DNA of 64,000 nt, from NCBI RefSeq assembly GCF_019061145.1, contig NZ_JAHQZS010000003.1:248001-312000 (forward strand). Direction: 5' to 3'. The notes below the pieces were generated by a model. It saw only the letters and a list, made by a program, of their open reading frames with translations. It was not told the DNA's origin and did no database searches. A program made the translations under genes and the position numbers. How positions within the stretch are numbered: the first letter of the stretch is position 1; each line of letters starts with the position of its first letter. The stretch comes from Anianabacter salinae (GTDB taxonomy: Bacteria > Pseudomonadota > Alphaproteobacteria > Rhodobacterales > Rhodobacteraceae). Positions 1-21,054 of this stretch are shown piece after piece.

Positions 1-1
1 A

Positions 2-1372
2 TCATATGTGACCATCAATGGTGCAGCGGCGGGCCTGATCGCCGTGGTGTTCGGTGCAGTGAATGGACTTGGGCTTGACCCGGCCACGGGCGATGTCGAC
101 CTCTTGCGTGGCTTCCGCGCGGCCCTTGCTGTTGGTGTGGTGTGCGGCGTCATTCAGATCGGCATGGGTCTTCTGAAACTTGGCAAATTGACCAGCCTTT
201 TTCCTCTGAACGTCGTTCATGGGATGCTTGCGGGCATCGGTATCATCATCATGGCCAAGCAGTTTCACCTGGCGCTTGGCGTCGAAGTGTCCGGGCACAT
301 GATCCACACGATCGAAGCCATCCCGGAAAGCATCGCAAGCCTGGTGCCGAATGTCGCGGCCATTGGATTGGCCAGCCTCATTCTCATGATACTATGGGGT
401 CGGCTTGGTGCAGTGGCCAAGTTCGTGCCCGCTCCGCTCGCAGTTGTAGTCATCGCGATCGCGCTGGCAGAGCTGCTGGGTGTCGAGGATGACTACCTCG
501 TCGCGGTTCCGACCAACATCGCGGATGCCTATCTGTCGCCGGACTGGAGCCAAGTCGCGACCCCGTTGTTCTGGAAGTTCGTGATCACTTACGTCTTTGT
601 CGCCAGTCTGGAGTCGCTGCTTACAGCCACGGCCATCGAGAAAATGGACCCATGGAAGCGTCGCGCTAACATGAACCGCGAACTGATGGGTAACGGCACC
701 GTGAACATCATTTCGTCTTTCGTCGGTGGTTTGCCGATGATCGCGGAAGTGGTCCGCTCGTCCGCCAACATCATGAACGGTGCGCGGACCCGATGGGCAA
801 ACCTGTTTCACGGCGTCTTTCTGGCATTGGCAGTCGTGCTGTTGCCGGTGGTTCTGAACATGATCCCGCTGGCTGCATTGGCTGGAATGCTGATGTTCAT
901 CGGCTTCCGTCTCGCCCATCCGAAAGAGTTCGTACACGCCTACAAGACTGGCAAGGAAGAGCTTTTCTACATGGTGTTCACGGCGCTGATCGTCGCCTTC
1001 GAGGACTTGCTCGCGGGAGTGGCGGCCGGTTTTATCGTCGCCGCCATCGTGAACGCCGTGCGCGGTGTACGCAGCGTCACGGCCGATGCCGAGGTCATTG
1101 GCACGGGCGAGAAGATCACCTTGCGCCTGAGGGGTTCCCACGGGTTCCTGAACTTCCTGTCTTTGCGCGGCAAGCTGGACGAACTGCCCCAGGGCCGCGC
1201 GTTGACGTTGGACTTGTCCGGGGTCCGCTACATTGACCACACCGTGCATGAGCAGCTTCACGACTTCGAAGCGGAGTATGCCCGAGGCGGCGGCAGTGTT
1301 CATGTGGTCGGCAAAGATGAGCTGCGGCCTCTTGCCCAAAGTCCTGTCGGCGCGATGCGGGCTGTTGGCTGA
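2..1372 (+). CDS. SulP-family anion (probably bicarbonate or sulfate) transporter with STAS domain, 5' partial
   Basis: The reading frame is open from the window edge, so the true start lies upstream; the GTG at 8 is inside the conserved core. The first residues resemble the SulP signature that is usually written SGPAAGL (here NGAAAGLIAVV). Many hydrophobic segments follow, including the HGMLAGIGI motif. The last roughly 100 residues form a soluble STAS-like domain (about 1090-1340 nt; LTLDLSGVRYID). SulP proteins are inner-membrane anion symporters or exchangers for sulfate or bicarbonate. It lies directly upstream of DabA and proton-channel genes, so bicarbonate is the more attractive substrate, but that is inference. 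A downstream hairpin separates it from the next gene. Confidence 0.88.
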   Translation, partial: SYVTINGAAAGLIAVVFGAVNGLGLDPATGDVDLLRGFRAALAVGVVCGVIQIGMGLLKLGKLTSLFPLNVVHGMLAGIGIIIMAKQFHLALGVEVSGHMIHTIEAIPESIASLVPNVAAIGLASLILMILWGRLGAVAKFVPAPLAVVVIAIALAELLGVEDDYLVAVPTNIADAYLSPDWSQVATPLFWKFVITYVFVASLESLLTATAIEKMDPWKRRANMNRELMGNGTVNIISSFVGGLPMIAEVVRSSANIMNGARTRWANLFHGVFLALAVVLLPVVLNMIPLAALAGMLMFIGFRLAHPKEFVHAYKTGKEELFYMVFTALIVAFEDLLAGVAAGFIVAAIVNAVRGVRSVTADAEVIGTGEKITLRLRGSHGFLNFLSLRGKLDELPQGRALTLDLSGVRYIDHTVHEQLHDFEAEYARGGGSVHVVGKDELRPLAQSPVGAMRAVG

Positions 1373-1387
1373 CCTGAACGATACCAT

Positions 1388-1413
1388 GCCGCGCGCCAAC
1401 CAGGGCGCGCGGC
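1388..1413 (+). terminator. GC-rich hairpin between SulP and NuoM-like genes
   Basis: Perfect 10-bp stem GCCGCGCGCC / GGCGCGCGGC with a 6-base loop (AACCAG). No T-run follows, so it is more likely an attenuator or mRNA-stability hairpin inside the operon than a strong terminator. Confidence 0.5.
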
Positions 1414-1450
1414 ACGTGCTGCCGGAAAATCTAGATCTATGGAGACTGTG

Positions 1451-2914
1451 ATGGGCGCTTCCGTGTTATTGCTTGGCCTGCCGATCCTTGGCTCAATTGC
1501 AATCATTTTCGCACCTGCCGGAAACGACGGTCGTGGACCGCTTTGGACGGCTATTGCCGCTGCCGGAGTCGTGCTGGCCACAGCGCTGATCATGGCCCTG
1601 AGAATCGAAAGTGGAGCTGGGGTCCAATACGTCACCAATATCGCCTGGATAACCGAAATCGGCGTCCAGTTTCATATTGGTCTCGACGGGCTTACAGCGC
1701 TGATGACTTTGCTCACCGCCTTGTTGAGCGTCGCTGCACTGGTCGCTGTCCCCGGCACTATGGGGAAGGTAAACCGCCCGTTCCTTGTTTGGTTCTTGTT
1801 GCTGGAAGCCACGGTCATGGGGGTGTTTCTGGCGCGGGACTGGTTCCTGTTCTACCTTTTCTGGGAACTTGCCTTGATACCCATGTTCTTTCTCATCGGT
1901 GTTTGGGGCGGACAGCGGCGCGCGCGCGCTGCCTATTCGTTCTTTCTGTACACACTCGCGGGTTCGGTCGTGATGCTTATCGGACTCATGGCCGCTTATC
2001 TCGAGGCCACTGCGCAGGGCATCGCCCATGGTTTCGAGATGTCTGTGATCGCCGAGGCAATGCAGTCCGCGCCTGCATCACTTCAGGTCTTCGTCTTTAT
2101 CTGTGTTTTTGCCGGAATGGCCGTCAAGGTTCCCGTGGTTCCGTTGCACGGCTGGCTGCCCATGGCGCATGTCGAAGCACCGGTTCCAGCTTCCATCATG
2201 TTGTCGGGAATTCTGCTGAAAATGGGTGGCTACGGTATGATCCGGCTGTCCGAGATGGTGCCCGGCGCCTTCCAAATGTTCGGGAGTGCCGTGTTGGTCC
2301 TCGGGCTTGTCACCATCATCTATGGTGCTGTTCTGGCGTTCCGGCAGGACGACCTAAAGGCGATGATAGCCTATTCCTCTGTCAGCCATATGGGCTTTGT
2401 CGTTCTGGGCATCGGATCGATGACAGAAATCGGGGTACGCGGTGCTGCGGTGCAGATGTTCAGCCATGGCCTTGTGACAGCCGCGCTGTTCGCATTGGTC
2501 GGAGTTGTCTACGCGCAGACGCACAGCCGCAGCCTGATCCTGTCGTCGGGGATCGGTCGTGGATCACCCCGCTTTGCAATTCTGATGACCCTTGCCTTGC
2601 TGGCATCGATGGGACTGCCCGGCCTGTCGGGCTTTGTTGGTGAGTTTCAGGTCTTGATGGGAGGCTACGAGCGCTGGGGTCAATCCGTGGCCATCGCCGG
2701 GATCGGGATCCTGTTGGTAACGGCATATTCGCTGCGGGTCTTTCGAAGGTTGATTCTGGCACCGTCGCAGCGCGAAGGCGTCGTGTTGCGTGACCTTGGA
2801 GCGCTTGATCTCGCCGGGATTGTGCCGCTCGCCATCCTGATGGTTTTGCTCGGTCTGTTCCCATCACCAATCGCCAATCTGGCCGCAGGCGTGCTGCCCG
2901 CCGTGCAACCCTGA
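1451..2914 (+). CDS. NuoM/MrpD-type proton-translocating membrane subunit, first of five in the DAB-like cluster
   Basis: About 487 residues and very hydrophobic, belonging to the NuoL/M/N antiporter-like family of inner-membrane proton channels. I choose ATG 1451 over ATG 1439 because GGAG at 1441-1444 is well placed for it. All four NuoM proton-path residues can be seen: TM5 Glu139 (FWELALIP), TM7 Lys226 (VKVPVVPLHGWLP), TM8 Lys257 (LLKMGGYG) and TM12 Glu398 (GFVGEF). Their spacing (87, 31, 141) is close to that of E. coli NuoM. No other complex I genes are nearby, and the next gene is dabA, only 17 bases on. It therefore probably supplies proton coupling to the DabA machine rather than to NADH dehydrogenase. 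Confidence 0.85.
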   Translation: MGASVLLLGLPILGSIAIIFAPAGNDGRGPLWTAIAAAGVVLATALIMALRIESGAGVQYVTNIAWITEIGVQFHIGLDGLTALMTLLTALLSVAALVAVPGTMGKVNRPFLVWFLLLEATVMGVFLARDWFLFYLFWELALIPMFFLIGVWGGQRRARAAYSFFLYTLAGSVVMLIGLMAAYLEATAQGIAHGFEMSVIAEAMQSAPASLQVFVFICVFAGMAVKVPVVPLHGWLPMAHVEAPVPASIMLSGILLKMGGYGMIRLSEMVPGAFQMFGSAVLVLGLVTIIYGAVLAFRQDDLKAMIAYSSVSHMGFVVLGIGSMTEIGVRGAAVQMFSHGLVTAALFALVGVVYAQTHSRSLILSSGIGRGSPRFAILMTLALLASMGLPGLSGFVGEFQVLMGGYERWGQSVAIAGIGILLVTAYSLRVFRRLILAPSQREGVVLRDLGALDLAGIVPLAILMVLLGLFPSPIANLAAGVLPAVQP

Positions 2915-2931
2915 AAAACCGGAGCGTAACC

Positions 2932-5900
2932 ATGGCAACATCATCCAAAGCGAAGCCCCGCAACTCGGCGACTTCTGCCAAGAGTTCCGAAGCCAAGCGC
3001 AAGGAACACCTCGTCCACGCGGTGCATCACACGGCGCATATGCTTAGTGAACAGGGACCGATGAACATTACCTTTGTTCACAATAATACGCTCTTGGGCT
3101 TGCAGTCATCGCATTTTCACGAAGGTATCGAAACGGCACGTCAGACGCTGGGAATAGAAGGCTACGAGCCGGAGGCGAAGTTCCTCCAGGACTTGTCTGA
3201 TGGCCGGATCACCGAAGTGGATCTGGACACCAGTCTGTCGATGCAACCCGACTTTGGCCCCGAAACCATTGTCACGACGGTTGCCGGGCGTCCGATTACC
3301 CGGGCCGAGCTGGTAAAGGCGACCCTTCGAAACGGAGCCGTGACGCCGCTTACGCCGGTTGCGATCAGAAACAGTTTTGATCCGGAAAGTGGCTTGCTGG
3401 CGCTTGGTCCAGATGAATTGGTCCTGGAGCGAAGGCTGGCCGCCGAAGGCCGGGCAACCGTCGCGACGATACGCGAGGAAATCGGCGAGACGTTGACATT
3501 GGGAGCCTGGCTCGGACGCCACTTCGGCCTTGATGTCGACGGCATGATCGAAGAGGCCCTGTGCGAGGCAGCGGGCCAGAATGTGGGTGCCGATGCGGAT
3601 CGGTCCCTCTCCGACATGGGCATTTCCTATCCTCGTGCAAATTTATATCTCGCGCTGATGATTGATCGTTGGGGCGACCTGGCGGCGTTGGCGTTGGCCA
3701 TCGAGTCCCGTTTGGTGGCAGAAATCGCCGCCGAACGACTTGATTGCGAAGGCAAACTGGATTCGATCGTTGCCAGCTTCCTGGATCAGCCCGCAGGCTA
3801 TGCGGTACGTGCCCTGCATTCCGCTGTACTTGCGAACCTTTACCCCGACGGGCCGCATATGATCGACCATCAAGCCACTCCGTTTGGAAGTGGTGCTGGT
3901 TTCGATACCCTGCGCCCTCTCGACGTTCAGGGTTTGGACCTGTTGAACACGATGATCCGGAGCGTGGCCCCGGAAGAGCAGCCGTCTCTATCCCGACTGA
4001 AGACGGCGTTGGTCGCCGGCTATGTTGACGACGCCGAACTGACCGAGTTGTGCCGTCTGGCAGAAGTTGCGGGTGACACAAAGCACCGTGCCGCCGCGCG
4101 CAAACTTGCAGCCGGCACCGCGACTGAAATCTTCGAGGCGCATTGCTTGGACCAGGCAAACGACCTGGTAGAGGGATTGTACCAGGGGCGTGATCTGTCG
4201 GATCTGGTGCGGGAGCTGACTGGTATCGACGTTGCACAGAAGGTCAACGCCGCGATGATCAGGCACCTTTCGGCATTTACTGACGAAGGCATTTCCTCGT
4301 TGCGGATGCCTGATCGTCACCTGGGCCTGTTTGCGGCTTGGCGGCAGGCAGCCCCCTTCGACGAGCTGTTGCGATTTGAGGCACTCGAAGGTTGGCAGGA
4401 TGAACTTTCGGCCCTGCCCGAGGATGCCGGCGAGGCGTTGATCGCGATGTTGGATCGGATCGGTATCCCAGAAGCCGCATGGGAGCCATTTCTGGGCCGG
4501 ATGCTGGTACAACTAAGGGGCTGGGCCGGGATGATGTTCTGGATGGAAATCCATCCCCGACACCCCAAGCAGGCGCTGCATCCCGCCGATACGATCCAGT
4601 ATCTTGCGGTTCGTCTGTTCACTGAACTTTCCGTGGTCGGTCGTATCCTTCAGGAAGTGTGTGGCATAGCACCGCAAAAGAACGCGCTTGCGGATTGGGC
4701 CATGCGCAACAGTGCCGAAGTGTCGCTTCGCTTGGCCTTGCACCGGGGTGATCTGGAACCGGTCGTTGCAGAAGCCGCCTCGCTCATGCTGTCAATGCGT
4801 CCGCCGACCGCTGTTGAGCGTCGCCAGATCGTCAATCTGGCGCGGCGTGCATGGCTTGTCAGCGCGGTTGAACAGAGAAAGGCGCATGTCGCGCAGACCT
4901 CGAATCGCGCAACCCGCGTCTGTGCGGCCCTTGGTCTGACACCGCAGCAACTTGCCGACGCACCGGGCGCCTTGGCTGTTCTGCTTTCCGAAATCGACAA
5001 GGTGGATTCTCGCAAGGCAAGCCGGATTTGGCTGGAAGCCTTTGAAACGCACTATCGTGACGAGGTGTTGAACGCCCTTGCCCAGAACAAGGGGCGCGGA
5101 CGGTGGATCAACGGCCGGGATCGGCGGCCGCGATCGCAAGTGGTGTTCTGTATCGACGAGCGCGAAGAAAACCTGCACCGATACTATGCAGAGCTTGACC
5201 CAGACCACGAAACCCTCGGCGCTGCGGGCTTCTTTGGAATTGCCATCGCACACAGCCCCTTGGGCGGCCACGATCATACGCCGCTATGCCCCGCAGTTGC
5301 GACCCCCGGTCACCGCATCGCGGAAGTGCCGCGTGATAGCGACCTGGACACGACCTGGCCACTGGTCCAGGGCAGAAAGGTCTATTCCGATGCATTTGCA
5401 GCGGTGATGTGGGAGGCCAGGCGAAATCCGCTGGTGGCCTATGTGACCGCGCAACTGACAGGACTGTTTCACGCAGTTCCAATGGTCGGCCGGGTGTTTG
5501 CCCCGCTTGGCTACCAGCGGGTGTCCGACCACGTACAATCGCGATATTTGCCCGAAGTCGCAACAAGGCTGACCCACACCAAGCTTCCCGAGGATGTTCT
5601 TGCGAGGCTGGGGCTGCATGCGGAGGCGCTCCCTTTCGGGTTTTCGATCGAAGAAGCTGCCGACCGGGTCGAGGCACAGCTGCGGAATTGGGGCCTGACC
5701 TACCAGTTTGCACCGATCGTGGTCATATGCGCCCATCGATCGTTCAGTGTGAACAATCCGCACGAGAATGCGCATGATTGCGGTGCGTGCGGCGGCAAGG
5801 CAGGGGGGCCCAACGCGCGTCTTTTCGCGGCTCTGGCGAATGAACCGGCCGTGCGCGAGGTATTGCGGTCGCGAGGTATCGATATCCCCGACGACAGCTG

Positions 5901-6765
5901 GCTTGTCGGGGCAGAGCATAACACCTGCAACGATGACATTCTGATTTTTGATGTCGAGGACATTCCAGACGAACTGTCCGGAGCGTGGGAAGTCGTCGCC
6001 AAGGATCTGGAAGAAACCTCGCGCCGTGCCGCGCGCGAACGCTGCCGCCGATTTCGGTCCGCCCCCAAGGACGCATCAACGGAATCGTCGTGGTCGCATG
6101 TGAAGGCTCGCTCGCAGGATCTAAGCCAGGTGCGCCCGGAATGGGGTCATGCAACGAATGCCTTTGCGCTTGTTGGGCGTCGTGCGCTGACGCAGGGGCT
6201 GTTTTTTGACAGGCGTGGCTTCGTTATTTCCTACGATCCGACGCAGGATTCGGATGGCACCGTTCTCGAACGGATCCTCTTGGCTGTCGGGCCGGTTGGT
6301 GCGGGGATCAACCTTGAATATTACTTTTCTACCGTCAACCCCGATGGTTACGGCTCGGGCACCAAGGTGCCACACAACGTTGTTGGCATGATCGGTGTGA
6401 TGCCTGGAGCCGAGGGTGATCTGGCCACCGGCCTGCCACGTCAGATGACTGAGGTTCACGAGGCGATGCGCCTTCAGTTGATCGTGGATGCGCCCCTTGC
6501 AGTGCTGGGCGAAATCTATGGCCGCCAGCCGGGCATTCAGGAGCTGCTGAACGGACAATGGGTCCACCTGATCGCCCATGACCCCGAAACCTGTACCTTC
6601 CATCGCTTCGTGCCGGGGGTCGGTTTCGAGCAGTGGGACAAGCCGCTGACCGAGCTGGCCGAGGTCGACCACAGCTATGAATGGATCCGTGGCAAGCATG
6701 ACTGCTTCCTGCCGCCGGCTCGGATCAAGGAACCGCAAGCCCGCTGGGATGCGGTTTTGCACTGA
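2932..6765 (+). CDS. dabA: DabA-type inorganic carbon transporter subunit (DUF2309/UPF0753), long form
   Basis: Protein of 1277 residues. DabA proteins are carbonic-anhydrase-like zinc proteins that convert CO2 to bicarbonate, driven by an antiporter-like membrane partner. The four expected zinc/active-site residues are present: Cys740 and Asp742 (VVFCIDERE), His935 (ICAHRSFSVNNP) and Cys950 (DCGACGGKAGGPNAR). The 15-residue His-Cys spacing matches characterised DabA. The family HNT motif is also present (AEHNTCNDD). It has no evident signal peptide or clear membrane segments, so it probably sits on the cytoplasmic membrane face. ATG 2932 has GGAG 8 bases upstream. It is much longer than the roughly 800-residue Halothiobacillus DabA. 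It lies between NuoM-like and NuoL-like genes with gaps of 17 and 12 bases, clearly one operon. Confidence 0.93.
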   Translation: MATSSKAKPRNSATSAKSSEAKRKEHLVHAVHHTAHMLSEQGPMNITFVHNNTLLGLQSSHFHEGIETARQTLGIEGYEPEAKFLQDLSDGRITEVDLDTSLSMQPDFGPETIVTTVAGRPITRAELVKATLRNGAVTPLTPVAIRNSFDPESGLLALGPDELVLERRLAAEGRATVATIREEIGETLTLGAWLGRHFGLDVDGMIEEALCEAAGQNVGADADRSLSDMGISYPRANLYLALMIDRWGDLAALALAIESRLVAEIAAERLDCEGKLDSIVASFLDQPAGYAVRALHSAVLANLYPDGPHMIDHQATPFGSGAGFDTLRPLDVQGLDLLNTMIRSVAPEEQPSLSRLKTALVAGYVDDAELTELCRLAEVAGDTKHRAAARKLAAGTATEIFEAHCLDQANDLVEGLYQGRDLSDLVRELTGIDVAQKVNAAMIRHLSAFTDEGISSLRMPDRHLGLFAAWRQAAPFDELLRFEALEGWQDELSALPEDAGEALIAMLDRIGIPEAAWEPFLGRMLVQLRGWAGMMFWMEIHPRHPKQALHPADTIQYLAVRLFTELSVVGRILQEVCGIAPQKNALADWAMRNSAEVSLRLALHRGDLEPVVAEAASLMLSMRPPTAVERRQIVNLARRAWLVSAVEQRKAHVAQTSNRATRVCAALGLTPQQLADAPGALAVLLSEIDKVDSRKASRIWLEAFETHYRDEVLNALAQNKGRGRWINGRDRRPRSQVVFCIDEREENLHRYYAELDPDHETLGAAGFFGIAIAHSPLGGHDHTPLCPAVATPGHRIAEVPRDSDLDTTWPLVQGRKVYSDAFAAVMWEARRNPLVAYVTAQLTGLFHAVPMVGRVFAPLGYQRVSDHVQSRYLPEVATRLTHTKLPEDVLARLGLHAEALPFGFSIEEAADRVEAQLRNWGLTYQFAPIVVICAHRSFSVNNPHENAHDCGACGGKAGGPNARLFAALANEPAVREVLRSRGIDIPDDSWLVGAEHNTCNDDILIFDVEDIPDELSGAWEVVAKDLEETSRRAARERCRRFRSAPKDASTESSWSHVKARSQDLSQVRPEWGHATNAFALVGRRALTQGLFFDRRGFVISYDPTQDSDGTVLERILLAVGPVGAGINLEYYFSTVNPDGYGSGTKVPHNVVGMIGVMPGAEGDLATGLPRQMTEVHEAMRLQLIVDAPLAVLGEIYGRQPGIQELLNGQWVHLIAHDPETCTFHRFVPGVGFEQWDKPLTELAEVDHSYEWIRGKHDCFLPPARIKEPQARWDAVLH

Positions 6766-6777
6766 AGGGGACACCAG

Positions 6778-8805
6778 ATGGACAACATATTTCTCGCATT
6801 GATGTTTCTGCCAACCATGCTTGCTGTGGCTGCGATTGGCGCGAGCCTGTTTTCCGGCGACAGGTGGCTTGGATGGAAACAGGTTCAGATGGTGGCTTTG
6901 GCTGCTACGGGGATTTCCGCATTGGGTGGGGTGGGCCTGTTCGCTTCGCGACTTGCTACGCCACAGACTGCAACGGTCAGGGTTATGGAATGGTTCCAGA
7001 TCGGCGGTCAGTCTGTTGACATCGCCTTCCGGCTTGATCCGCTCTCGGCCATGATGGCAGCGCTGGTTACGGTCTTCGGGGTCCTGATCTGCCGTTTCTC
7101 GATAAACTATATGCACAACGAAATCGGGTTCAGCCGCTATTTCCTGGTTTATGCGTTGTTCATTGTGACGATGCTGATGCTTGTCCTGGCGGACAATCTT
7201 GTCCTGATGTTCCTCGGCTGGGAAGGCGTTGGCCTGTGTTCTTTCCTGTTGATCGGCCATTACACCGAACGGACGGCCTCGGCCCGGGCTGCAACGGAAG
7301 CCTTCGTCACGAATAGGTTGGGCGATGCTGCCTTCATTCTTGCAATCATCATCCTGGCAATCGGTGCTGGAACCGTACGGCTTTCGGAACTCCCCGAAGC
7401 GCTGTTGTCCGCAGACCCATGGGTAGCGCCTGCCGCGGCCTTGGGTATTGCGGTGGCAGCTATGGCAAAATCGGGACAGTTTCCACTGGGTGGTTGGATG
7501 AACCGCGCCATGGAGGGCCCTGGACCGACCAGTACGCTGTTCTACGGCTCAATCATGGTGAGCGCGGGTGTCTTTCTGGTCGTGCGACTGTCACCCTTGT
7601 TCGAGCTGGCACCTGCAGTACTGACGATCCTCGCTGTATTCGGCGGACTGACGGCGATCATCGCATCCCTGACATCGCAGGCCGCAAACGACATCAAGGG
7701 CGCTCTTGTGAATACATCGGCCATGCACCTTGGCATGATGTTCGTCATCTGCGGGTTGGGCGCCTATGAATGGGCGATTTTCTATATCATCGCGCACGCC
7801 TTTTACACCGGCTATCAGTTCCTGACGGCACCGTCGATCCTGCACATATTGCATGGGCGGCCGGATTTCTCGGACAAATCGGTACCGGACCCTGTCCCTG
7901 CAAATGTAGGCGTCGCGCTATTTTTCGCCGCTGTGATGGCGCTTACTCCGCCGCTGTTGACGATGACCGGAACGGAGATCGGGCTGACGCTGCGGGTTGC
8001 AGTTACTTTGGGTGCTGCGGCGTTGGCCACAACGTTGCTGTTCTGGATGGCGGCAAAAGCCGTGCGCTCTGCCCAAACCGGACACGATGACCACAGCCAT
8101 GAACATGTGCCGGCGCGGGTTCGTCTGGGCCCCGCCGCCAAGGCGGCCGTGACAATTGTCATCGCAGCCATGGCCGGAGTGCTCTTGCAGATTCTTCCCG
8201 TCGAAGCCGGGGATGCAGGGTTCGGCGAGTTTCTTGGGTTGCCACAAGGCAATGCGGCATTGGCGGTCCCTGCGCTTGCCCCGCTTCTGGCATTTCTTCT
8301 GGCGCTCGCGGCCCTGCACTCGGTTTATTCAGTCTTGCACGTCACACGGTCATCCCCCGAGGCTGGCCTGTCCGGCAACACCCTGCTGCGCGCGCTGCAC
8401 CGGGCGGCACGGAACCGGTTCTGGGTCGATGCTGTGCTGAAGTCGGTCTTGATGGCCTCTGTATTGCGCTTCTCAGAGCGTCTTGCCCGAGCCGATCACC
8501 GTCTGGCTCAGGCCTTGCCCTTGCTGACCGAACGCACTGCGAATGCGGCAGGTGATACCATCGGATGGCTTGACGCTGCGCCACGCGCAGCCGTGGAGTC
8601 AATTCCTGGAATAGTCGGCATGCAAATGGCCGAGGCCGCGCGACATGCGGAAACGAAGGCGACGGAAGGGTTTGAAGAAACTCTCGACCGAAGCTCCGGA
8701 TTGCTTGGCAGAAGTGCGTTGGCTGTAGAACGAGCGCTCGGGCGACCTGTGGTCAGCGTCGGCGTGATCATCTTGGTGGCCCTTCTGGCCCTTGCGGGAG
8801 CGTAA
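6778..8805 (+). CDS. NuoL/DabB-like proton-channel membrane subunit with His-rich loop
   Basis: 675 residues; start has AAGGGG upstream. The N-terminal two-thirds align with NuoL at a constant offset of +2: TM5 Glu149 (GWEGVGLCSF), Lys231 (AKSGQFP) and His340 (IAHAFY). However, the NuoL His254 position is Tyr256 and the Lys342 position is Thr344, and the TM12 block with its key lysine is not recognisable. After the core comes a polar loop with four histidines (H436, H439, H441, H443; GHDDHSHEH), then further hydrophobic segments and an amphipathic stretch ending in a C-terminal membrane anchor. As the gene immediately after dabA it is the best candidate for the DabB role, although classical dabB usually precedes dabA. 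The altered residues leave its own proton conduction in doubt. Confidence 0.82.
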   Translation: MDNIFLALMFLPTMLAVAAIGASLFSGDRWLGWKQVQMVALAATGISALGGVGLFASRLATPQTATVRVMEWFQIGGQSVDIAFRLDPLSAMMAALVTVFGVLICRFSINYMHNEIGFSRYFLVYALFIVTMLMLVLADNLVLMFLGWEGVGLCSFLLIGHYTERTASARAATEAFVTNRLGDAAFILAIIILAIGAGTVRLSELPEALLSADPWVAPAAALGIAVAAMAKSGQFPLGGWMNRAMEGPGPTSTLFYGSIMVSAGVFLVVRLSPLFELAPAVLTILAVFGGLTAIIASLTSQAANDIKGALVNTSAMHLGMMFVICGLGAYEWAIFYIIAHAFYTGYQFLTAPSILHILHGRPDFSDKSVPDPVPANVGVALFFAAVMALTPPLLTMTGTEIGLTLRVAVTLGAAALATTLLFWMAAKAVRSAQTGHDDHSHEHVPARVRLGPAAKAAVTIVIAAMAGVLLQILPVEAGDAGFGEFLGLPQGNAALAVPALAPLLAFLLALAALHSVYSVLHVTRSSPEAGLSGNTLLRALHRAARNRFWVDAVLKSVLMASVLRFSERLARADHRLAQALPLLTERTANAAGDTIGWLDAAPRAAVESIPGIVGMQMAEAARHAETKATEGFEETLDRSSGLLGRSALAVERALGRPVVSVGVIILVALLALAGA

Positions 8806-8808
8806 CCC

Positions 8809-10449
8809 ATGAACATGTCCACTTTGACTGCGGTCGAACAAGCAGGCTTTCCATTGCTCTCGTTGCTTCTTTTGGTTCCTGCGATTGCCACCCTTTTGCT
8901 CTGGTTTGGCGGGTCACCAGTCGGTGCGCGCAAGTTCGCCATTGCCGCTGCCTTGACGCAACTTTTTCTAGCGGTCGTAGTGATGATCGCATTTCGGACC
9001 GACCATGCTGGGCTACAACTTGCCGAGACGGTGGGCTTCTACCGTCTGGGTATTGACGGGCTTAGCATCCTGTTCCTCCCGCTTACCGCGATCCTGACGC
9101 TGTTCTGTCTGCTGGCAACCCGCCCACGGCACTGGGAGGGCATTCAGAGCGACGTGTGCGAGCTGGCCCAGAACTCCGCTCGCACCGGGCCTGAGGTCTC
9201 CAAGTTGACCCGGTCCACACTTCGCGAGACCCGATACTTCGCGGCCCTCATGGCACTGTCTACGATCTTGACCGGGGCCTTTGTCGTCGCCGACATGCGG
9301 TTGTTCTGGCTGTGCTTGTCGGCCGAGGCGTTCCCAGCCTGGTATCTGCTCAGGTATTTTGGGCGGGTAACGGAGACCGGGTCAGGCAATGGCGGGTCTG
9401 CACGAAGCTTTGCAGTTACCATGGTTCTGGCTGCGGGTCTGTCCCTCGTTGGACTGGAACTGCTGGCTGGCTACTTGGGCGGGTCCCACTACGGGCTTAT
9501 GGCGACGTCACCTGTTCCAGCTTCGGTTCAGGGTGGTGCATTCGTATTGCTATCTCTGGCTTTTGCGATCCGTGCGCCGCTGTTTCCGCTGCACGCTTGG
9601 CTGCCGCAGGTTTTGAACGCGGGTCCGGCCATGGGACTGGGTGTCTTCCTAGTCGGCTTGAAAATCGGCACCTACGGTTTCCTCCGCTTCGTCATAGCGC
9701 CGCTGCCGGACGCAACCGCCGAATATGGCTGGATCATCGCGGTCCTCGGCGCAATCGGCGCGGTTTATGGCGGGCTCATGGCTTTGATCCAGACAGATCT
9801 GCGTCGGCTGCTTGGCTATGCCAGCATTGCCCACATGGGGGTTATCGTGATCGGCCTGTTTTCATTTAATGTTTACGGGATTGAGGGTGGGCTGCTGCAG
9901 ATGCTTACCATCGGGATGGCGGTTGCGGGACTGTATGTCTTTGGTTCTTTCATCGCCGAACGTGTCGCATCCCCCGACGTAAGACATCTGGGCGATCTGC
10001 TGTCCAGCGCACCATGGCTCGCAGGAGTGTTCCTGCTGACTGCCATGGCTGCGGTCGGTATGCCGGGGACGTCCGGTTTTAACGGCGAGCACCTTGTTGT
10101 CATCGGGGCCGTCAAGACACATTGGTCGCTGGCCCTGGCTGTTGCGGCGTCCACCGTGTTGACCGCTGCCTATCTGCTACGCTTCTTCATGCGCGCCTTT
10201 ATGGAACCGGCCCGCCCGGGTCAGGACGGCTCGGGATTCAGTGACCTTCGAGGCGGCGAACGCCTGATCGCAGGATCGTTGGCCGCTGTTGTGTTGCTGG
10301 TTGGCCTGAACACGGGCCCTTTCATCGCTCTTGCAAGGCCCACAGTCGAAGCCATTTCGGCGCGGCAACCCATCAGGGAACACTCTGCAGTGACCCAAGT
10401 CTTGCCCAGCGCTTTCCATCAATCCCACAACACCACCGACGCCAACTGA
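8809..10449 (+). CDS. NuoM-like membrane subunit with altered proton-path residues
   Basis: 546 residues, starting 3 bases after the previous stop; its ribosome site GGGAG is inside the end of the upstream gene. It belongs to the NuoM-like family: LGIDGLSILFLPLTA near the N-terminus, FPLHAWLP in TM7, Lys285 in TM8 (GLKIGTYGFLRF), and Glu in TM12 (GTSGFNGEH). The TM7 lysine is replaced by Arg255 (AIRAPLFPLH), and the TM5 glutamate is displaced by about two residues (Glu173, LSAEAFPAW). A soluble insertion of about 50 residues (roughly 105-150) sits between early helices. It has a close relative, the next gene. It may be a structural spacer or a modified channel in the complex; this is inference. 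Confidence 0.8.
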   Translation: MNMSTLTAVEQAGFPLLSLLLLVPAIATLLLWFGGSPVGARKFAIAAALTQLFLAVVVMIAFRTDHAGLQLAETVGFYRLGIDGLSILFLPLTAILTLFCLLATRPRHWEGIQSDVCELAQNSARTGPEVSKLTRSTLRETRYFAALMALSTILTGAFVVADMRLFWLCLSAEAFPAWYLLRYFGRVTETGSGNGGSARSFAVTMVLAAGLSLVGLELLAGYLGGSHYGLMATSPVPASVQGGAFVLLSLAFAIRAPLFPLHAWLPQVLNAGPAMGLGVFLVGLKIGTYGFLRFVIAPLPDATAEYGWIIAVLGAIGAVYGGLMALIQTDLRRLLGYASIAHMGVIVIGLFSFNVYGIEGGLLQMLTIGMAVAGLYVFGSFIAERVASPDVRHLGDLLSSAPWLAGVFLLTAMAAVGMPGTSGFNGEHLVVIGAVKTHWSLALAVAASTVLTAAYLLRFFMRAFMEPARPGQDGSGFSDLRGGERLIAGSLAAVVLLVGLNTGPFIALARPTVEAISARQPIREHSAVTQVLPSAFHQSHNTTDAN

Positions 10450-10461
10450 AGGAGCTGATTG

Positions 10462-12033
10462 ATGCAGGACTTGACCTTTCTGGAGACCCCTGGATTTCCC
10501 ATCCTCTCCTTCATGATCTTTCTGCCCTTGCTGACCGCCATCCTGTCTGCCGTGACGCCAAATCCCCGAACCGCGCGCCTATGGGCGGTCACCGGTGCAT
10601 CACTGTCTGCACTTCTTTCGGTTCTGGCGGTCTTGGTATTCCGGTCCGATTTCTCTGGATATCAGATGCTGGAACGCGTGGCGTGGCTGCCCGGTCTGGG
10701 TGTGGACTATGCAGTTGGCGTGGATGGTATCAGCATTCTTTTTCTGCCGATGACGGCCTTTCTATTCGTGGCGCTGATGCTTTGCTTTCCTAAGGGAGGT
10801 GGGCGATGGGTGAATGTAAATCTGCTGGTCCTCCTGTCGTCGACGCTTGGATGTTTTGCCGCTGCAGATGCGATGTTGTTCTTCGTCTTCTTCGAGGTTG
10901 CCCTTGTTCCGGGGTATTTCCTGATCAAGTTGGGAGGCCGCGCGGATGACCCGGCAGGCGCAGCGCGGCGCTACATGATATTCATGCTGCTCGGGTCGCT
11001 ACCGATCATGGCGGGTCTGGTGCTGGCAGGCGGTTCTGCGGAGGAAACGACCGGCGTCCTTTCCTTCAATATTGATCATCTGGCCGCTGCCGGTCTGCCG
11101 CAGGGCACGGAACTGGTGGTCTTTGCCTTTCTGGTCTTTGGGTTCGGGCTGAAGGCCCCAGCGCTACCTCTGCATCTGTGGCTAGGGTCAAGCGTGGCTT
11201 CGGCACCGGTCTCAATCATGGCTTGGTTGCTTGGCGTGAAACTAGGAACCTATGGGTTTCTGCGGTTCGTTCTGCCGCTCACGCCGGATGCCTCCTTGAG
11301 TTTCGCACCTTGGATCATAGGGTTGGAAGTGGTTGCCGTGGTCTATGCCGGGCTGATCGCGCTTACGCGTTGCGATCTGCGCAGCCTGCTGGTCTTTTCG
11401 TCTATCGGGCATGTGGGGTTGATGACGGCGGCCGTGTTCTCGGGCACCGAGGACGGCTGGCGTGGCGCAATCTTGATGATGCTGAACGCCGGTATTGCAA
11501 CGGCGGCCCTCGCAATATGTGTCGGGTTCATCGAGCGGCGCCTTGGAACATCGGACCTGCGCGCAATGGGTGGTTTGATCGCCAAGGCACCACGGTTGAC
11601 AGCGGTCGTCTTCGTCTCCGGGCTGGCCCTGATCGGGGTTCCAGGCACGAGCGGTTTCGCAGGCGAGATACTGTCATTGAAGGGTGTCTTTGAGGCAGGC
11701 TGGGCTTTCGGCCTGATCGCGGTCACAGGCGTATTGCTGGGGGCTGGGTATTTCTTCACTGCGTATCAGCGCGGCTTTCTGGGTCCTGTTCCCGGACGGG
11801 TTGTCGGTATCGGCGATTTGCGTGGTCCCGAAGCCTTGGTTGGCGCAGGGATGATACTCGCAGTCGTTGTGCTCGGGCTGTTCCCGAGTCTGCCTGAAGG
11901 CATGACCCGCGCCAGTGTCGCGGCGGAGATTCAACGCCAGACCGTGCGTGTCGCAGAGAAGAACGGGAAAACGCCCGAGCTCACCAATGCCGTGGAAATG
12001 GAGCGTGCGAACATGTCGGAGGACGCGTCGTGA
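10462..12033 (+). CDS. NuoM-like proton-translocating membrane subunit (fully conserved channel)
   Basis: About 523 residues. ATG 10462 is preferred over TTG 10459 because AAGGAG ends 7 bases upstream of it. All proton-path residues of NuoM are visible: Glu145 (FFEVALVPGYF), Lys231 (LKAPALPLHLWLG), Lys260 (GVKLGTYGFLRF) and Glu402 (GTSGFAGEI). The N-terminal half resembles the upstream 546-residue protein (VDGISILFLPMTA; KxGTYGFLRF), suggesting a tandem duplication followed by divergence. The C-terminal 50 residues are polar. It lies between two other antiporter-like genes and is probably one of the active proton channels of the DAB-like complex. Confidence 0.83.
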   Translation: MQDLTFLETPGFPILSFMIFLPLLTAILSAVTPNPRTARLWAVTGASLSALLSVLAVLVFRSDFSGYQMLERVAWLPGLGVDYAVGVDGISILFLPMTAFLFVALMLCFPKGGGRWVNVNLLVLLSSTLGCFAAADAMLFFVFFEVALVPGYFLIKLGGRADDPAGAARRYMIFMLLGSLPIMAGLVLAGGSAEETTGVLSFNIDHLAAAGLPQGTELVVFAFLVFGFGLKAPALPLHLWLGSSVASAPVSIMAWLLGVKLGTYGFLRFVLPLTPDASLSFAPWIIGLEVVAVVYAGLIALTRCDLRSLLVFSSIGHVGLMTAAVFSGTEDGWRGAILMMLNAGIATAALAICVGFIERRLGTSDLRAMGGLIAKAPRLTAVVFVSGLALIGVPGTSGFAGEILSLKGVFEAGWAFGLIAVTGVLLGAGYFFTAYQRGFLGPVPGRVVGIGDLRGPEALVGAGMILAVVVLGLFPSLPEGMTRASVAAEIQRQTVRVAEKNGKTPELTNAVEMERANMSEDAS

Positions 12034-12102
12034 ACAGTTCTTCTTCGCGTTCAACGCGCCCAGACATCGCCCAATCCTTCCCTTGCAACGGAGAGCATTG
12101 AC

Positions 12103-13611
12103 ATGAGTGCCGTTTCCCTAGCCCCGATTCTCGCTATCTTCTCCTCTCTTGCCGGGCTGGTCGGCGTAGGAGCTTTCCACGCCTCAGTGCGAATGCGCAA
12201 TACGGCGGTTCTTGTTGCGGCGGTATGTCAGACGCTGGTGTTACTCTACATGGTTCCCGCCGTTCTGGACGGTCAGGTTTTGACTTTGGAGATCTCGACG
12301 CTGCTGCCCGGCGCTGGCCTTGCGTTTCGGGTTGATGGACTTGGTCTCACCTTCGCCCTGATCGCGTCGATACTGTGGCTGGTGACGGCAATTTATTCTT
12401 TCGGTTACCTCGATATTCTGAAGTCGGGCAACCAAAGCCGGTTCCAGGCGCTTTTTGCTTTGACCATCACTTTCACCGTCGGCGTGGCCTTTGCCGCAAA
12501 CCTTGTCTCGCTCTATCTGTTTTACGAGGCAATGACGGTCGCAACCTATTTTCTTGTCACGCATGATGACACGGACGAGGCACATGCCGGAGGGCGGCGC
12601 TACTTAGCTTATCATCTGGGTACGTCCATTGCGTTCCTTCTGCCGGCGATCGGGTTGACTTGGCATCTTGCCGGGTCGCTCAGCTTTGTGCAGGGCGGGC
12701 TGTTCGCAGATTTGGACACCGAGACCCATCGCGGGATGCTGACCCTTGCTTTTGTTCTGTTCCTGGCAGGCAGCGCGAAAGTCGCAATCATGCCGTTGCA
12801 CGGATGGTTGCCCGGGGCGATGGTGGCGCCTGTTCCGGTGTCGGCACTCTTGCATGCGGTGGCGGTGGTGAACGCAGGGGCGTACGGTGTACTACGCATA
12901 CTCAGTGATGTCTTCGGCGCACCGGTGCTGACTAGCCTGGGGCTGGACCAGATTGGAATTTGGTTGGCCTCTTTCACGGTCGTTGCGGCGTCGCTTTATG
13001 CGTTAAGGCTGGATAATCTAAAGGCCCTGCTTGCGTTTTCGACCATCGGCCAACTGGCCTATATTGTACTGGGTGCGTCTCTTGCGAACCCAGATGGGGC
13101 GATGGGCGGGATGTTGCACATCCTCAATCACGGTTTGTCGAAGATCACGCTATTCCTCTGCGCTGGGGCAATCTACGTCGCGACCCACAAGAAATACGTG
13201 TCTGAGATGGCTGGACTGGCTCGGGAGATGCCGCTGACGGTACTGGCCTTCGCGATCGGCGCGTTCAGCATGATCGGACTGCCGTTGACGGCCGGCTTCA
13301 TTTCCAAATGGTATCTCTTTGCCGGGGCGCAGGATGCCGGAAGCATGGTCGCCCTAGCGGCGTTGATCTTGTCCAGCATGCTGTCTGCTGCCTACTACCT
13401 GAGAGCGCTTGCGATTTTCATGGGGTGGACTGGAGAGCGGAGTGCTAGGCTGTCGCGGCTTCCGCCTGTTCGCCTCGGTACGGAAGTGGATGGGCGAATG
13501 CTGTGGCCATTGGTTGTCTGTGCCATCATGACATTACTGGTTGGAGTATTTCCGGATCTGTTTGCCTTGCCCTTGCTTGTCCCTGTTGTTGAAGCCTCTT
13601 TCATGCGCTGA
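12103..13611 (+). CDS. MrpD/NuoN/HyfB-like proton-translocating membrane subunit
   Basis: 502 residues. GGAGAG lies about 8 bases upstream of ATG 12103; a 69-base gap separates it from the previous gene. It has Glu142 (FYEAMTVATYF), Lys226 (SAKVAIMPLHGWLP), His251 (SALLHAVAVVNAG), Lys347 (NHGLSKITLFL) and a TM12 lysine, Lys402 (TAGFISKWYLF). This Lys-type TM12 and the His-containing TM8 are features of the MrpA/MrpD/NuoL branch, not NuoM. It therefore adds a different channel type to the cluster. No MrpB, C, E, F or G genes are present, so it is not a sodium/proton Mrp antiporter operon. It is the last structural gene before the two-component genes. Confidence 0.84.
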   Translation: MSAVSLAPILAIFSSLAGLVGVGAFHASVRMRNTAVLVAAVCQTLVLLYMVPAVLDGQVLTLEISTLLPGAGLAFRVDGLGLTFALIASILWLVTAIYSFGYLDILKSGNQSRFQALFALTITFTVGVAFAANLVSLYLFYEAMTVATYFLVTHDDTDEAHAGGRRYLAYHLGTSIAFLLPAIGLTWHLAGSLSFVQGGLFADLDTETHRGMLTLAFVLFLAGSAKVAIMPLHGWLPGAMVAPVPVSALLHAVAVVNAGAYGVLRILSDVFGAPVLTSLGLDQIGIWLASFTVVAASLYALRLDNLKALLAFSTIGQLAYIVLGASLANPDGAMGGMLHILNHGLSKITLFLCAGAIYVATHKKYVSEMAGLAREMPLTVLAFAIGAFSMIGLPLTAGFISKWYLFAGAQDAGSMVALAALILSSMLSAAYYLRALAIFMGWTGERSARLSRLPPVRLGTEVDGRMLWPLVVCAIMTLLVGVFPDLFALPLLVPVVEASFMR

Positions 13612-13656
13612 TCAGCTTTTCGTTGACGTACCCCCTCTGAAGGTGAGTGTTGTGGC

Positions 13657-14358
13657 ATGCGCATTCTGATCGTTGAGGATAATGAAGACATCGCGGGTAA
13701 TCTTTATGATTACCTGGAAGGTGCGGGCAACGAGGTTGAGTGGGTGCAGGATGGCTATGCAGCGCTTGGAATGCTGGCTGCTGAGGAGTTCGACGCCGTT
13801 GTCCTTGATCTACTTCTTCCCCGGCTTTCGGGTATGGATGTGTGTCGAGTGCTGCGGAAGGATCGGCATGTCGATGTGCCGATCCTCATGTTGACTGCGC
13901 TAGATTCTGTAAAGGACAAGGTCCAAGGGTTCGAAGCCGGAGCGGACGACTATCTTGCAAAGCCATTTGCCATGGAAGAAGTGCTGGCGCGTCTGAAGGC
14001 TTTGGTAAACAGACGCGGTGGAGCGGTGGTTCTGCAGCCGCTGGCTGCAGGCCCAATAAGCTATGATCCCCTTTCCCAGACGGTCTGGTTGCAAGGCAGC
14101 GAAGTGGTCTTGCAACCCAAAAGTCTTCAGATCCTGCTGGCTTTTCTCAAACAGCCGCAGAGAACTTTCGGTCGTGCCGAGATTGAACGGATCGTCTGGG
14201 GCAATGATGAAATGCGGTCCGAGGCAGTGCGTGCCCATATGTCGACCCTGCGACGAGCCTTGCACTCGGACAGCCTGCCGGTCGCAATTCAAACGCTTCA
14301 TGGCATAGGCTACCGGCTGTCGCCCGAGTTTTTGGACGCCGGTAGCGCTGTTCCCTGA
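13657..14358 (+). CDS. OmpR/PhoB-family response regulator
   Basis: 233 residues. The receiver domain (1-120) has the acidic pair near residues 7-8, phospho-acceptor Asp51 (VVLDLLLP), Thr80 and Lys102 (DYLAKPF). The C-terminal part (about 130-225) is a winged-helix DNA-binding domain (RTFGRAEIERIVWG; HGIGYRL). The stop overlaps the kinase start by one base (TGATG), so the pair is translationally coupled. It follows the last membrane gene by 45 bases and probably controls this cluster, perhaps in response to CO2, bicarbonate or pH. That signal is a guess from context. Confidence 0.93.
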   Translation: MRILIVEDNEDIAGNLYDYLEGAGNEVEWVQDGYAALGMLAAEEFDAVVLDLLLPRLSGMDVCRVLRKDRHVDVPILMLTALDSVKDKVQGFEAGADDYLAKPFAMEEVLARLKALVNRRGGAVVLQPLAAGPISYDPLSQTVWLQGSEVVLQPKSLQILLAFLKQPQRTFGRAEIERIVWGNDEMRSEAVRAHMSTLRRALHSDSLPVAIQTLHGIGYRLSPEFLDAGSAVP

Positions 14359-15629
14359 TGTTTGTCAAAGCAACCTCGATCCCGAAACTCCAGCTGGCGA
14401 CCCAGCTGACAATTTTCGTTGTCTTCGCGGTTCTCGTCTCGGTTATTGCGGCTTATCTCGTCACCCTGCAGGCCGAACGTTCCTTCGAGTTCCGAAAAGC
14501 TGAGGCACGAGCCAATACGTTGGCGCCCGCTCTGACGAGCGGCGGGATCGATACAATCCTGGGAGTGGCTTGGGTTCTGCCACGACGCGACCCTTTGGCC
14601 GAAGTCCCACCACCCGATATCGCGGCCTTACCTGTCGGTCACCACCTTTTGCAACGCCCTGAAGGCACTATTCACGCAGTCGTAAGGCCGATGACAGAGG
14701 GAAGGCGAAGTATCGTATTGTATGCTTCGGCACCGCATTTGGAACAGCGCGCTACCTTGTTGCGCCTGCTTGGAGGAACCGCGTTGGTCCTCGTGGCGGC
14801 GACCGTGGCGCTTGCTCCTTGGTGGGCCGGATTTCTATTGCGCTATGATCCCATGGTGCGGCGACGGATTGGGAGACAAATGTCGCATGCCGCGCGCGAA
14901 GCGTTCCAGTCGCAAGGTGCCAGTACCTCTACCTTGGCGCTGACATATACTGAATATGTGCGCTTGCTCTACGATCCCGATGAGCGCTCGAGAGAGTTCA
15001 TCGCGAACGTAGCACATGAACTACGCACGCCGATCACGGTTGTTCGGTCGGGTTGTGAAGTAATCGTCGGCAACCCCAATCTTGAGGTGCGAAACGAACG
15101 TCGCTTGATAAGAATGATTGCTGCCCTTGATCACATGAGCGAAACCATTGAAAGTTTCGTGTTGCTGGCGCGTGATGGAGATTATGGCATCAGGTCCCGC
15201 GTAGAGATTGCAAAGTTATTTGCGGAAGTCATTTCGTTGCACGCCGCGGAGGCTGAAGCGCGGGAGGTTTTCATCGTATTGGGGCACTGTGATCCGACTC
15301 CAGTTGAGGTGCCACGTGAAGCATTGGCAACGGTTGTGTCGAACCTGCTGCGCAATGCCATACGTCACGGTGCCCGAGGTGGGCAGATTGACCTGACGTT
15401 CCGACAGGGTGAATTGCGCGTAGGCAACAATGGCGCCGGCATTTCGCAAGAAGAGAAGGAGAAGATTTTCCGCCCCTTCTACCGTGCCAGAAATGCGGCC
15501 GAGGAAGGCTCGTTCGGGTTGGGTCTTGGTCTGGCGATCGTCAAACGTATTTGCGAAGCCTGCAACTGGAATATCGACGTGCAAAGCCCAGAAGCAAACA
15601 GGACTGTCTTCTCGATCCGGATTCTTTGA
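14358..15629 (+). CDS. Membrane sensor histidine kinase
   Basis: 423 residues. Two transmembrane segments (about 15-38 and 136-160) enclose a periplasmic sensor region of about 100 residues. The dimerisation/phospho-acceptor H-box has His220 (NVAHELRTPITVV). N-box (SNLLRNAIRHG) and G-box (GLGLGLAIVKRI) ATPase motifs are present. No HAMP domain is obvious. It partners the regulator encoded immediately upstream with a one-base overlap. The ligand cannot be told from sequence. It ends the lower-GC block: the base composition rises after its stop. Confidence 0.93.
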   Translation: MFVKATSIPKLQLATQLTIFVVFAVLVSVIAAYLVTLQAERSFEFRKAEARANTLAPALTSGGIDTILGVAWVLPRRDPLAEVPPPDIAALPVGHHLLQRPEGTIHAVVRPMTEGRRSIVLYASAPHLEQRATLLRLLGGTALVLVAATVALAPWWAGFLLRYDPMVRRRIGRQMSHAAREAFQSQGASTSTLALTYTEYVRLLYDPDERSREFIANVAHELRTPITVVRSGCEVIVGNPNLEVRNERRLIRMIAALDHMSETIESFVLLARDGDYGIRSRVEIAKLFAEVISLHAAEAEAREVFIVLGHCDPTPVEVPREALATVVSNLLRNAIRHGARGGQIDLTFRQGELRVGNNGAGISQEEKEKIFRPFYRARNAAEEGSFGLGLGLAIVKRICEACNWNIDVQSPEANRTVFSIRIL

Positions 15630-16777: not shown

Positions 16778-19099
<2,322 letters not shown>

Positions 19100-19106
19100 T
19101 CCACTT

Positions 19107-19132
19107 CCCCGGCGGCAGCGATGCCGCCGGGG
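19107..19132. terminator. Bidirectional terminator between convergent katG and soxT
   Basis: Perfect 11-bp stem CCCCGGCGGCA / TGCCGCCGGGG with a 4-base GCGA loop, located between the stop of katG (19099) and the stop of the convergent soxT (19140). Confidence 0.75.
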
Positions 19133-19139
19133 ACACCGA

Positions 19140-20195
19140 TCATTCTGCGGGCATCAGCCCGGTTATCAACTGCCGCAGGCCAAGCGCCGCGCCCGCGAAA
19201 ATTGCCAGGACGGTGACCGGAGCGGACAGTGCCAGCACCGAGAACGCCGACAACCCCTGACCCACGGTGCAGCCGAGCGCCAGCACCGCGCCGACGCCCA
19301 TCAGCGCCGCGCCGATGATCTGGCGGCGCAATTCGCGCGGGTCCTCGCAGGCTTCCCAACGGAAATGTCCTTTCACAAGACTGCCCGCGAAGGCGCCTGC
19401 CAGCACCCCCGCCACCGACCCGACGCCAAAGCTGACGCTGCGGCCGGACGCGGTCATCAGGTACAGCATGGAATCCCCAAGCGGCGCTGCGAAGGTGTGC
19501 GACACCACCGGCAGCCCGTCGAACCCGTTGGTCGCCACCCAGGTCGTGCCGACCCAGCCCGACACGATCGCCACGCCGACGACAACCGACCAGAACACCA
19601 TGCCGCGTGTGGAGGCAAAGCGCCGGTCGGCCAGCGAAAACGCCAGGATCGCCCCGCCGATCAGGATGCCGGTGGCCACGACAGGCACCCCGGCAAAGCT
19701 TGCCAGATGATGCGCGATGCCGGGCGCGGTGCCGGTGAGGGCATAGCCGGGGAAGGCCCAGACCCGCAGCGCGGCAAACGGGCCGGACAGCACCGCATAG
19801 GCGGACAATCCCATCACAAGGACGATCACGAAGGACCGGAAATCGCCGCCGCCGACCCGCGCCAGCGCGCCGAAGCCGCAGTTTCCCGCCAGCGCCATAC
19901 CATAGCCGAACAACAGGCCGCCAAGGATGCCTGCCACCGGGTTCCACGCGGTTCCCAGATAGACCGAGCGGTCAAGCGACGCCCAGCCCGCTGCCGCCGC
20001 CGCGAAGGTCAGCAGCACCGCAGTGCCGATGGCCACGCCCCACATCCGCAACCGGCGGGTGTCACCGCCGTAAAGCGCATCCTCGATCGCGCCAAGCGAA
20101 CAGAACCGCCCCAGCCGCGCAGCAAGACCCAGCAACAGACCGCCGCCGAAGCCGATCACGGCCACCATCAATGGCTCTCCGAAAAGATCCAGCAT
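19140..20195 (-). CDS. soxT: YeeE/YedE-family sulfur-compound transporter (SoxT-like)
   Basis: 351 residues with about nine or ten hydrophobic segments. Family cysteine motifs are present: GNCGFGAL and LGCTVGQGLSAF, plus SLGAIEDALYGGDTRR near the N-terminus. YeeE/YedE proteins import thiosulfate or related sulfur species; in Paracoccus and relatives a member (SoxT) sits next to soxR. Here it is downstream of soxS-soxR on the minus strand with a 29-base gap, probably the last gene of that operon. Its role as importer or as a signal-supplying component for SoxR is inferred from context. Confidence 0.85.
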   Translation of the reverse strand: MLDLFGEPLMVAVIGFGGGLLLGLAARLGRFCSLGAIEDALYGGDTRRLRMWGVAIGTAVLLTFAAAAAGWASLDRSVYLGTAWNPVAGILGGLLFGYGMALAGNCGFGALARVGGGDFRSFVIVLVMGLSAYAVLSGPFAALRVWAFPGYALTGTAPGIAHHLASFAGVPVVATGILIGGAILAFSLADRRFASTRGMVFWSVVVGVAIVSGWVGTTWVATNGFDGLPVVSHTFAAPLGDSMLYLMTASGRSVSFGVGSVAGVLAGAFAGSLVKGHFRWEACEDPRELRRQIIGAALMGVGAVLALGCTVGQGLSAFSVLALSAPVTVLAIFAGAALGLRQLITGLMPAE

Positions 20196-20224
20196 CCCAA
20201 GGCTCCCTTCCCAAGGCGCCGGAG

Positions 20225-21053: not shown

Positions 21054-21054
21054 T

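Follow-up and report, generated by a model that had tools for sequence, protein, structure and literature searches.

A DabA cassette with five antiporter-like subunits in Anianabacter salinae, a putative multi-subunit variant of the DAB carbonic anhydrase machines

Gene content and distribution of the cassette

The stretch analysed here, called the window, comprises 64,000 nucleotides of the marine bacterium Anianabacter salinae (contig NZ_JAHQZS010000003.1, positions 248,001 to 312,000). It opens with a tight block of nine open reading frames (ORFs; window 1-15629, ORF list of the window), all on the plus strand, in which DabA stands among five antiporter-like membrane proteins. The order is SulP-M1-DabA-L-M2-M3-D-RR-HK, where RR and HK are a response regulator and a histidine kinase, and the intergenic gaps down the block are 66, 17, 12, 3, 9, 69 and 45 bp, followed by a one-base overlap of RR and HK. 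An earlier note, made from the sequence letters, had described one same-strand block running from SulP to the kinase, and the ORFs, Pfam and NCBIfam all agree with it.

DabA (2932-6765, 1277 aa) matches PF10070 with 757 bits against a cut-off of 25 and could be aligned to 9rd0, a structure of DAB2, the DabA2-DabB2 pair of Halothiobacillus neapolitanus (9rd0/9rd8/9rd9). In the position of DabB lies L (6778-8805), for which NuoL models score best in NCBIfam. The NuoM model TIGR01972 is the top NCBIfam match, above cut-off, for M1 (1439-2914; 473 bits), M2 (8809-10449) and M3 (10459-12033), and MrpD-like models of the PRK08375 type take that place for D (12103-13611). All five are PF00361 proteins, every one with an E value of 8e-39 or better. 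The first gene (1-1372) encodes a SulP-family anion transporter of 536 aa (PF00916, E 1e-48) with a weak C-terminal STAS domain, and its start lies 239 bp upstream of the window, at L003:15762. The last two encode an OmpR/PhoB-type response regulator (13657-14358; PF00072 and PF00486) and a membrane histidine kinase (14358-15629; PF00512 and PF02518), for which hydropathy predicts two transmembrane (TM) helices with a loop of ~100 residues between them. DabA also carries an N-terminal helical extension at residues about 120-410 (window 3300-4150), and the N-terminal part of the Pfam model is matched in two separated pieces.

As the earlier note had it, the block is devoid of NuoA-K, NuoH and Mrp E-G genes. 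No NuoA-K or NuoH gene and no quinone or redox module was found within it among the ORFs and Pfam matches, which sets it apart from a respiratory complex I; likewise Pfam found no MrpB, MrpC or MrpE-G there, and a single MrpD-like gene is not the MrpA-G set of an Mrp antiporter. The block holds the sole DabA of the genome and half of its ten PF00361 genes, the others being nuoLMN (C1:717-721 kb) and two mrp genes (C1:3-7 kb). These loci sit on another contig, apart from the DabA block, so that the nuo or mrp neighbour that the earlier note had raised against its own reading is not there.

A scan of a genome collection with DabA recovered the whole nine-gene cassette, in the same order, in Roseovarius autotrophicus and in a Rubrivivax metagenome-assembled genome (MAG). 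DabA is 64% identical to that of the window in the former and 51% in the latter; across the genes the identities range over 58-77% and 37-68%, respectively. Such conservation of order excludes a chance arrangement. The response regulator is kept in both of these loci (L056 and L057), and the genes flanking the cassette are not the same among its loci. The core M1-DabA-L-M2-M3 reaches further: two independent samples together show it in at least 25 Pseudomonadota loci besides that of the window, which answers the earlier note's question of whether DabA accompanies these subunits elsewhere. A phylum-wide sample gave strong DabA matches in 36 further genomes, with the core in most of the loci fetched, and a second sample, drawn from the class to which genome G613 belongs, had such matches in 20 of its 360 genomes, with the core in most loci of sufficient length. 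Beyond the three nine-gene loci, neither D nor the two-component pair was seen. In several core loci M1 is preceded by SulP; in others its neighbour on that side is unrelated.

In FastTree trees of trimmed alignments, the DabA clade is monophyletic, with a support of 1.0 when a basal sequence from genome G802 is included and 0.946 without it. The nearest other alphaproteobacterial DabA homologues, at about 39% identity, turned out to belong to ordinary DabB-then-DabA pairs, and no close relative was present in the plasmid records, the best-ranked match being 32% identical. The basal G802 locus (L172, G802:C1, about 1574-13481) is itself a multi-antiporter locus with the order SulP-DabA-M-L-M. 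Its DabA has Leu, Ser and Asp at the sites of DAB2 residues 658, 356 and 444, alongside SulP and three antiporter-like genes. This locus is possibly an evolutionary intermediate, and its combination of residues and genes suggests that the extra antiporters may have arisen before the active-site change. On plasmid 1 of Nitrobacter hamburgensis (L078), a PII-associated DabB-DabA locus occurs as tandem copies immediately next to a carboxysome operon.

No gene of the cassette is better conserved than that of SulP (77% identical in L056, 68% in L057), whose family includes BicA, a BicA model matching it weakly. It is on this evidence that one might think of a sodium-coupled bicarbonate system like staphylococcal MpsAB, which has been argued to use sodium (PMC13144422); the antiporter-like arm would then exchange Na+ for H+ and power bicarbonate import by SulP, DabA or both. 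The match to the BicA model is far under its cut-off (93.7 bits, cut-off 880), and DAB2 needed no sodium (PMC13144422), so we hold this explanation to be very improbable.

Residues of DabA and of the antiporter-like subunits

The functional sites of DAB2 are taken from its cryo-EM study (2026, PMC13144422). Its zinc ligands C351, H524 and C539 correspond to C740, H935 and C950 of the window DabA, and its Asp-Arg dyad D353/R355 to D742/R744; neither set varies in the clade wherever its residues are present, in line with the DAB-type CO2-hydrating module proposed in the earlier note. The catalytic part of a predicted model of DabA residues 1-1200 (pLDDT 82.8) matches the beta-carbonic anhydrase CsoSCA (Z 12.1, root-mean-square deviation 4.0 over 254 residues). 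DAB2 is not among the Foldseek/VIA matches for the L and DabA models, although 9rd0 may postdate the library, so that its absence carries no weight.

Around these shared residues, three sites differ. Leu658 of DAB2, which is strictly conserved in 150 homologues and stands where beta-carbonic anhydrases carry Gln or His (PMC13144422), is His1073 in the window; the clade has His in 40 of 40 sequences (22/22 and 18/18 in the two samples), and the canonical DabAs have Leu in 32/32. At the position of Ser356, every clade member with a residue there has Glu. Glu444, the finger residue whose replacement by Ala or Gln abolishes DAB2 (PMC13144422), is Gln841 in the window. Glu occurs at this site in none of 40 clade members and Asp in four; Glu or Asp is found in 32/33 canonical sequences, the remaining one being incomplete. 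The finger region is hard to align, but MAFFT and HMMER concur on the Glu444 position. That the finger acid was lost throughout the clade was a candidate generalisation from the first sample (0/22 acidic), and it was rejected on the four Asp of the second. Nearby, finger position 854 is basic in 21/22 and 19/19 clade sequences.

The partner subunit L also differs from DabB. It keeps the complex I residues E144 (36/36), R175 (35/36), D178 (36/36) and K229 (35/35 with data) of NuoL, and the tree joins it to complex I NuoL to the exclusion of DabB with a support of 0.99; an AlphaFold model of L matches NuoL with Z above 40. None of 30 canonical DabBs has an equivalent of E144, the site being Ile151 in DAB2, where restoring Glu halves growth (PMC13144422). 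L and DabB have one loss in common, in that the TM12 Lys of NuoL (position 399) is replaced in 36/36 L sequences and is missing in almost all DabBs. The cassette thus has the marks of the DAB/DAC systems, namely a PF10070 protein above cut-off with its zinc ligands and Asp-Arg dyad and an adjacent PF00361 partner without the TM12 Lys. It departs from the two-subunit DAB2 type in having no equivalent of the finger Glu444, no Leu at 658 and no partner devoid of NuoL E144.

Of the five channel-type proteins counted in the earlier note, all are indeed PF00361 members, but only M1, M3 and D keep the full proton-channel set. M1 and M3 have TM5 Glu, TM7 Lys, TM8 Lys and TM12 Glu, and D has TM5 Glu, TM7 Lys and a TM12 charge. 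M1 and M3 are each monophyletic in the tree and M2 is nearly so. In M2, the TM5 Glu is gone from its usual position in 30/30 sequences, the TM7 Lys has become Arg in 29/30 and the 305-equivalent Lys has become Arg in 30/30. The three nine-gene loci do have a Glu two residues from the usual TM5 site, and they retain the TM12 Glu. The same degeneracy of M2, with the TM5 Glu missing from its normal site and two Lys exchanged for Arg, recurs across the core operons. This repeated degeneracy hints at a conserved non-pumping or adaptor role. The multi-antiporter operon described in the earlier note is conserved, but the unusually large coupling capacity put forward there has to be moderated, given the residues lost from M2 and the TM12 Lys lost from L.

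The same residues bear on whether the operon encodes one machine or two. DabA and L could be an ordinary DAB, with M1, M2, M3 and D forming a separate Mrp-like or complex-I-arm-like cation/proton exchanger for pH and sodium control, and SulP a separate bicarbonate or sulfate transporter. The fit of D to MrpD-like models and its restriction to the nine-gene form are as expected for such a division, as are the DabB-like loss of the TM12 Lys from L and the core loci that have unrelated genes in place of SulP. Yet across many lineages DabA-L is surrounded by M1, M2 and M3 in an unchanged order, and L retains the complex I ion-pair network that the single-partner DabB has dropped. Mrp antiporters need MrpB/C/E/F/G, which the block lacks, and the genome has its separate mrp locus elsewhere. 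Taken together, these points make two machines in one operon unlikely.

CO2 hydration near neutral pH yields little free energy, and this speaks against a machine run in reverse, in which hydration or another exergonic reaction in DabA would pump ions out for pH control or energy conservation. Such a direction is compatible with M1 and M3, whose pumping residues are complete, and with L, which has the switch residues of complex I; outward pumping, with the ion number set by the number of subunits, was proposed in a 2017 study (PMC5700660). DAB2 and its relatives are, to the contrary, described as uptake systems for CO2 that consume the proton motive force (PMF) (PMC13144422), and we regard the reverse direction as improbable.

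A proposed machine and its host

The reading we favour, with somewhat better than even confidence, is that the cassette encodes a variant DAB/DAC vectorial carbonic anhydrase, in which a CO2-hydrating head driven by the PMF is mounted on a multi-antiporter arm like that of complex I. DabA would be the zinc head that hydrates CO2, and L its direct membrane partner, taking the place of DabB and lengthened into a complex-I-like arm by M1, M2 and M3, with D added in the nine-gene form. Protons would enter through the intact channels of M1, M3 and D, ion-pair switching would run along the arm into L, and L would open or activate DabA for one-way hydration of CO2 to bicarbonate. SulP may bring in bicarbonate in parallel, and the two-component pair may govern expression, a control that is plausible because the pair accompanies the cassette in all three nine-gene loci. 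While the operon with its conservation, the zinc-site residues, the residue set of every subunit and the phylogenetic placements are observed, we infer the single physical complex, the direction, the ion (H+ or Na+), the stoichiometry, the SulP substrate and the regulation.

DAB2 is thought to link CO2 hydration with proton flow, its finger glutamate completing a periplasmic half-channel and Ile151 keeping DabB2 open (PMC13144422). Sites that were tested in DAB2 differ here, which suggests that coupling to the proton gradient would be unlike that of the two-protein CO2 pump. Proton entry through M1 and M3 is proposed because the finger acid is mostly gone, a closed-state Glu is present and the NuoM-like neighbours are complete. 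The bicarbonate accumulation within reach scales as 10^(n x PMF/59 mV), where n is the number of ions per CO2, and therefore extra channels would permit work at lower CO2 or lower PMF. More tentatively, as a possibility that we still find doubtful, the clade may represent a second mechanistic class, in which a DabA head with a carbonic anhydrase-like His is driven not by a finger glutamate but by an ion-pair wave of long range that passes through an arm of four or five subunits, spending more than one ion per CO2 and scavenging CO2 at lower concentration or PMF.

Several points weigh against the multi-antiporter machine. The placing of all subunits in one assembly is deduced from conserved gene order, and the AlphaFold model of L is of low confidence past residue 350. 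The size of the arm does not equal pumping capacity, because M2 is degenerate. Loss of the finger acid is not a strict feature of the clade, given its four Asp. His1073 alone may change little, because Leu658 to Gln gave DAB2 no carbonic anhydrase activity in vitro (PMC13144422). Finally, it is unclear why the host needs bicarbonate, since a separate beta-carbonic anhydrase is encoded and RuBisCO was not found in the assembly.

The earlier note saw no RuBisCO in view, and this extends to the whole 95%-complete assembly, in which there is also no clear phosphoribulokinase. Roseovarius autotrophicus and the Rubrivivax MAG, the hosts of the same nine-gene cassette, do have RuBisCO. Among the 36 other clade genomes of the phylum sample, G613 alone has it, which weakens a Calvin-cycle accessory as the simple reading. 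A stand-in for a missing carbonic anhydrase was rejected on account of the beta-carbonic anhydrase of the host. The host role may be anaplerotic supply or mixotrophy, or carbon-fixation genes may be missing from the assembly.

The GC content of the block is 0.588 against 0.66, and its GC at third codon positions is 0.59-0.74 against 0.84-0.92 in katG, soxB and soxC. Just upstream of the window, L003:14593-15760 (G000:C9:246593-247760) holds a tRNA-Ser(gct) and then a transposase-like C-terminal remnant (NCYDAVAESFFQLLKRERI..., IS3-like by eye). The low-GC stretch begins right after the tRNA-Ser(gct), holds the remnant and includes the cassette. This region looks like the boundary of a genomic island, although a search for an attachment-type repeat of the tRNA region of at least 13 bp found none. 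The foreign composition, the low-GC start after the tRNA and the transposase-like remnant make it likely that the cassette was acquired by horizontal transfer. Downstream, at window 16898-31043, are a katG catalase-peroxidase, a YeeE-type sulfur transporter (minus strand), a DsbD/SoxV-like gene, soxX, soxA, soxB, soxC, c-type cytochromes and an SQR/FCC-like flavoprotein, and this sox cluster beside the island points to a capacity for thiosulfate oxidation.

In non-photosynthetic autotrophs, DAB pumps are a widespread means of taking up CO2, and a structural explanation of them, with a single antiporter subunit and a key glutamate in the finger, has only just become available. A widespread sister class without the finger Glu, and with the complex I ion-pair switch, an active-site His and three or four added antiporters, is a natural experiment on proton-driven catalysis. 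It offers a redox-free model for energy transfer among the antiporter subunits of the complex I arm, and the prediction of several ions per CO2 is directly measurable.

Comparison with known systems

The cassette resembles the membrane arm of complex I (NuoL/M/N) in that L is nearest to NuoL, with the E144/R175/D178/K229 network, and M1-M3 are NuoM-like; it differs in having no NuoH/A/J/K and no redox arm, with a DabA head instead. In cyanobacterial NDH-1MS, likewise, a subunit that hydrates CO2 sits on subunits of the NuoL/M type (CupA with NdhF/NdhD). These CO2 uptake complexes are described in PMC13144422. Unlike them, the cassette lacks the complex I core and genes for ferredoxin-driven electron transfer, and its DabA is like a beta-carbonic anhydrase.

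With DAB2 the cassette shares the DabA zinc ligands, the Asp-Arg dyad, a hydrophobic finger and a NuoL-like partner without the TM12 Lys. It has exchanged L658 for His, S356 for Glu and E444 for Gln in the window or for mostly apolar residues in the clade, and its L retains the NuoL E144 lost by DabB2. It also adds three NuoM-like subunits plus D, and its dabA lies upstream of the L gene. Other DAB papers speak of one to three subunits.

The gene neighbourhood has a precedent in the COGNAT paper (2017, PMC5700660), which reported SulP and NuoM genes as frequent companions of dabA where it precedes nuoL and suggested that the number of ions rises with that of the membrane genes. Its 'Clade C' ybcC/COG3002 operons have dabA before nuoL together with SulP (COG0659) and NuoM (COG1008), as here. 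The pairing of DabA with several antiporters, which the earlier note set against the single partner of known DAB systems, thus has a precedent. In contrast to the account given here, that paper contains no residue analysis and does not tie the operon to CO2, and its main text does not describe the M1-DabA-L-M2-M3 core, the degenerate M2, D or the two-component pair. The literature that could be searched yielded no account of this multi-antiporter DabA class at the level of function or of residues. The SulP/NuoM neighbourhood has been known since 2017; what is new is that the cassette differs from DAB2 in a coordinated way at the very sites that were mutated there.

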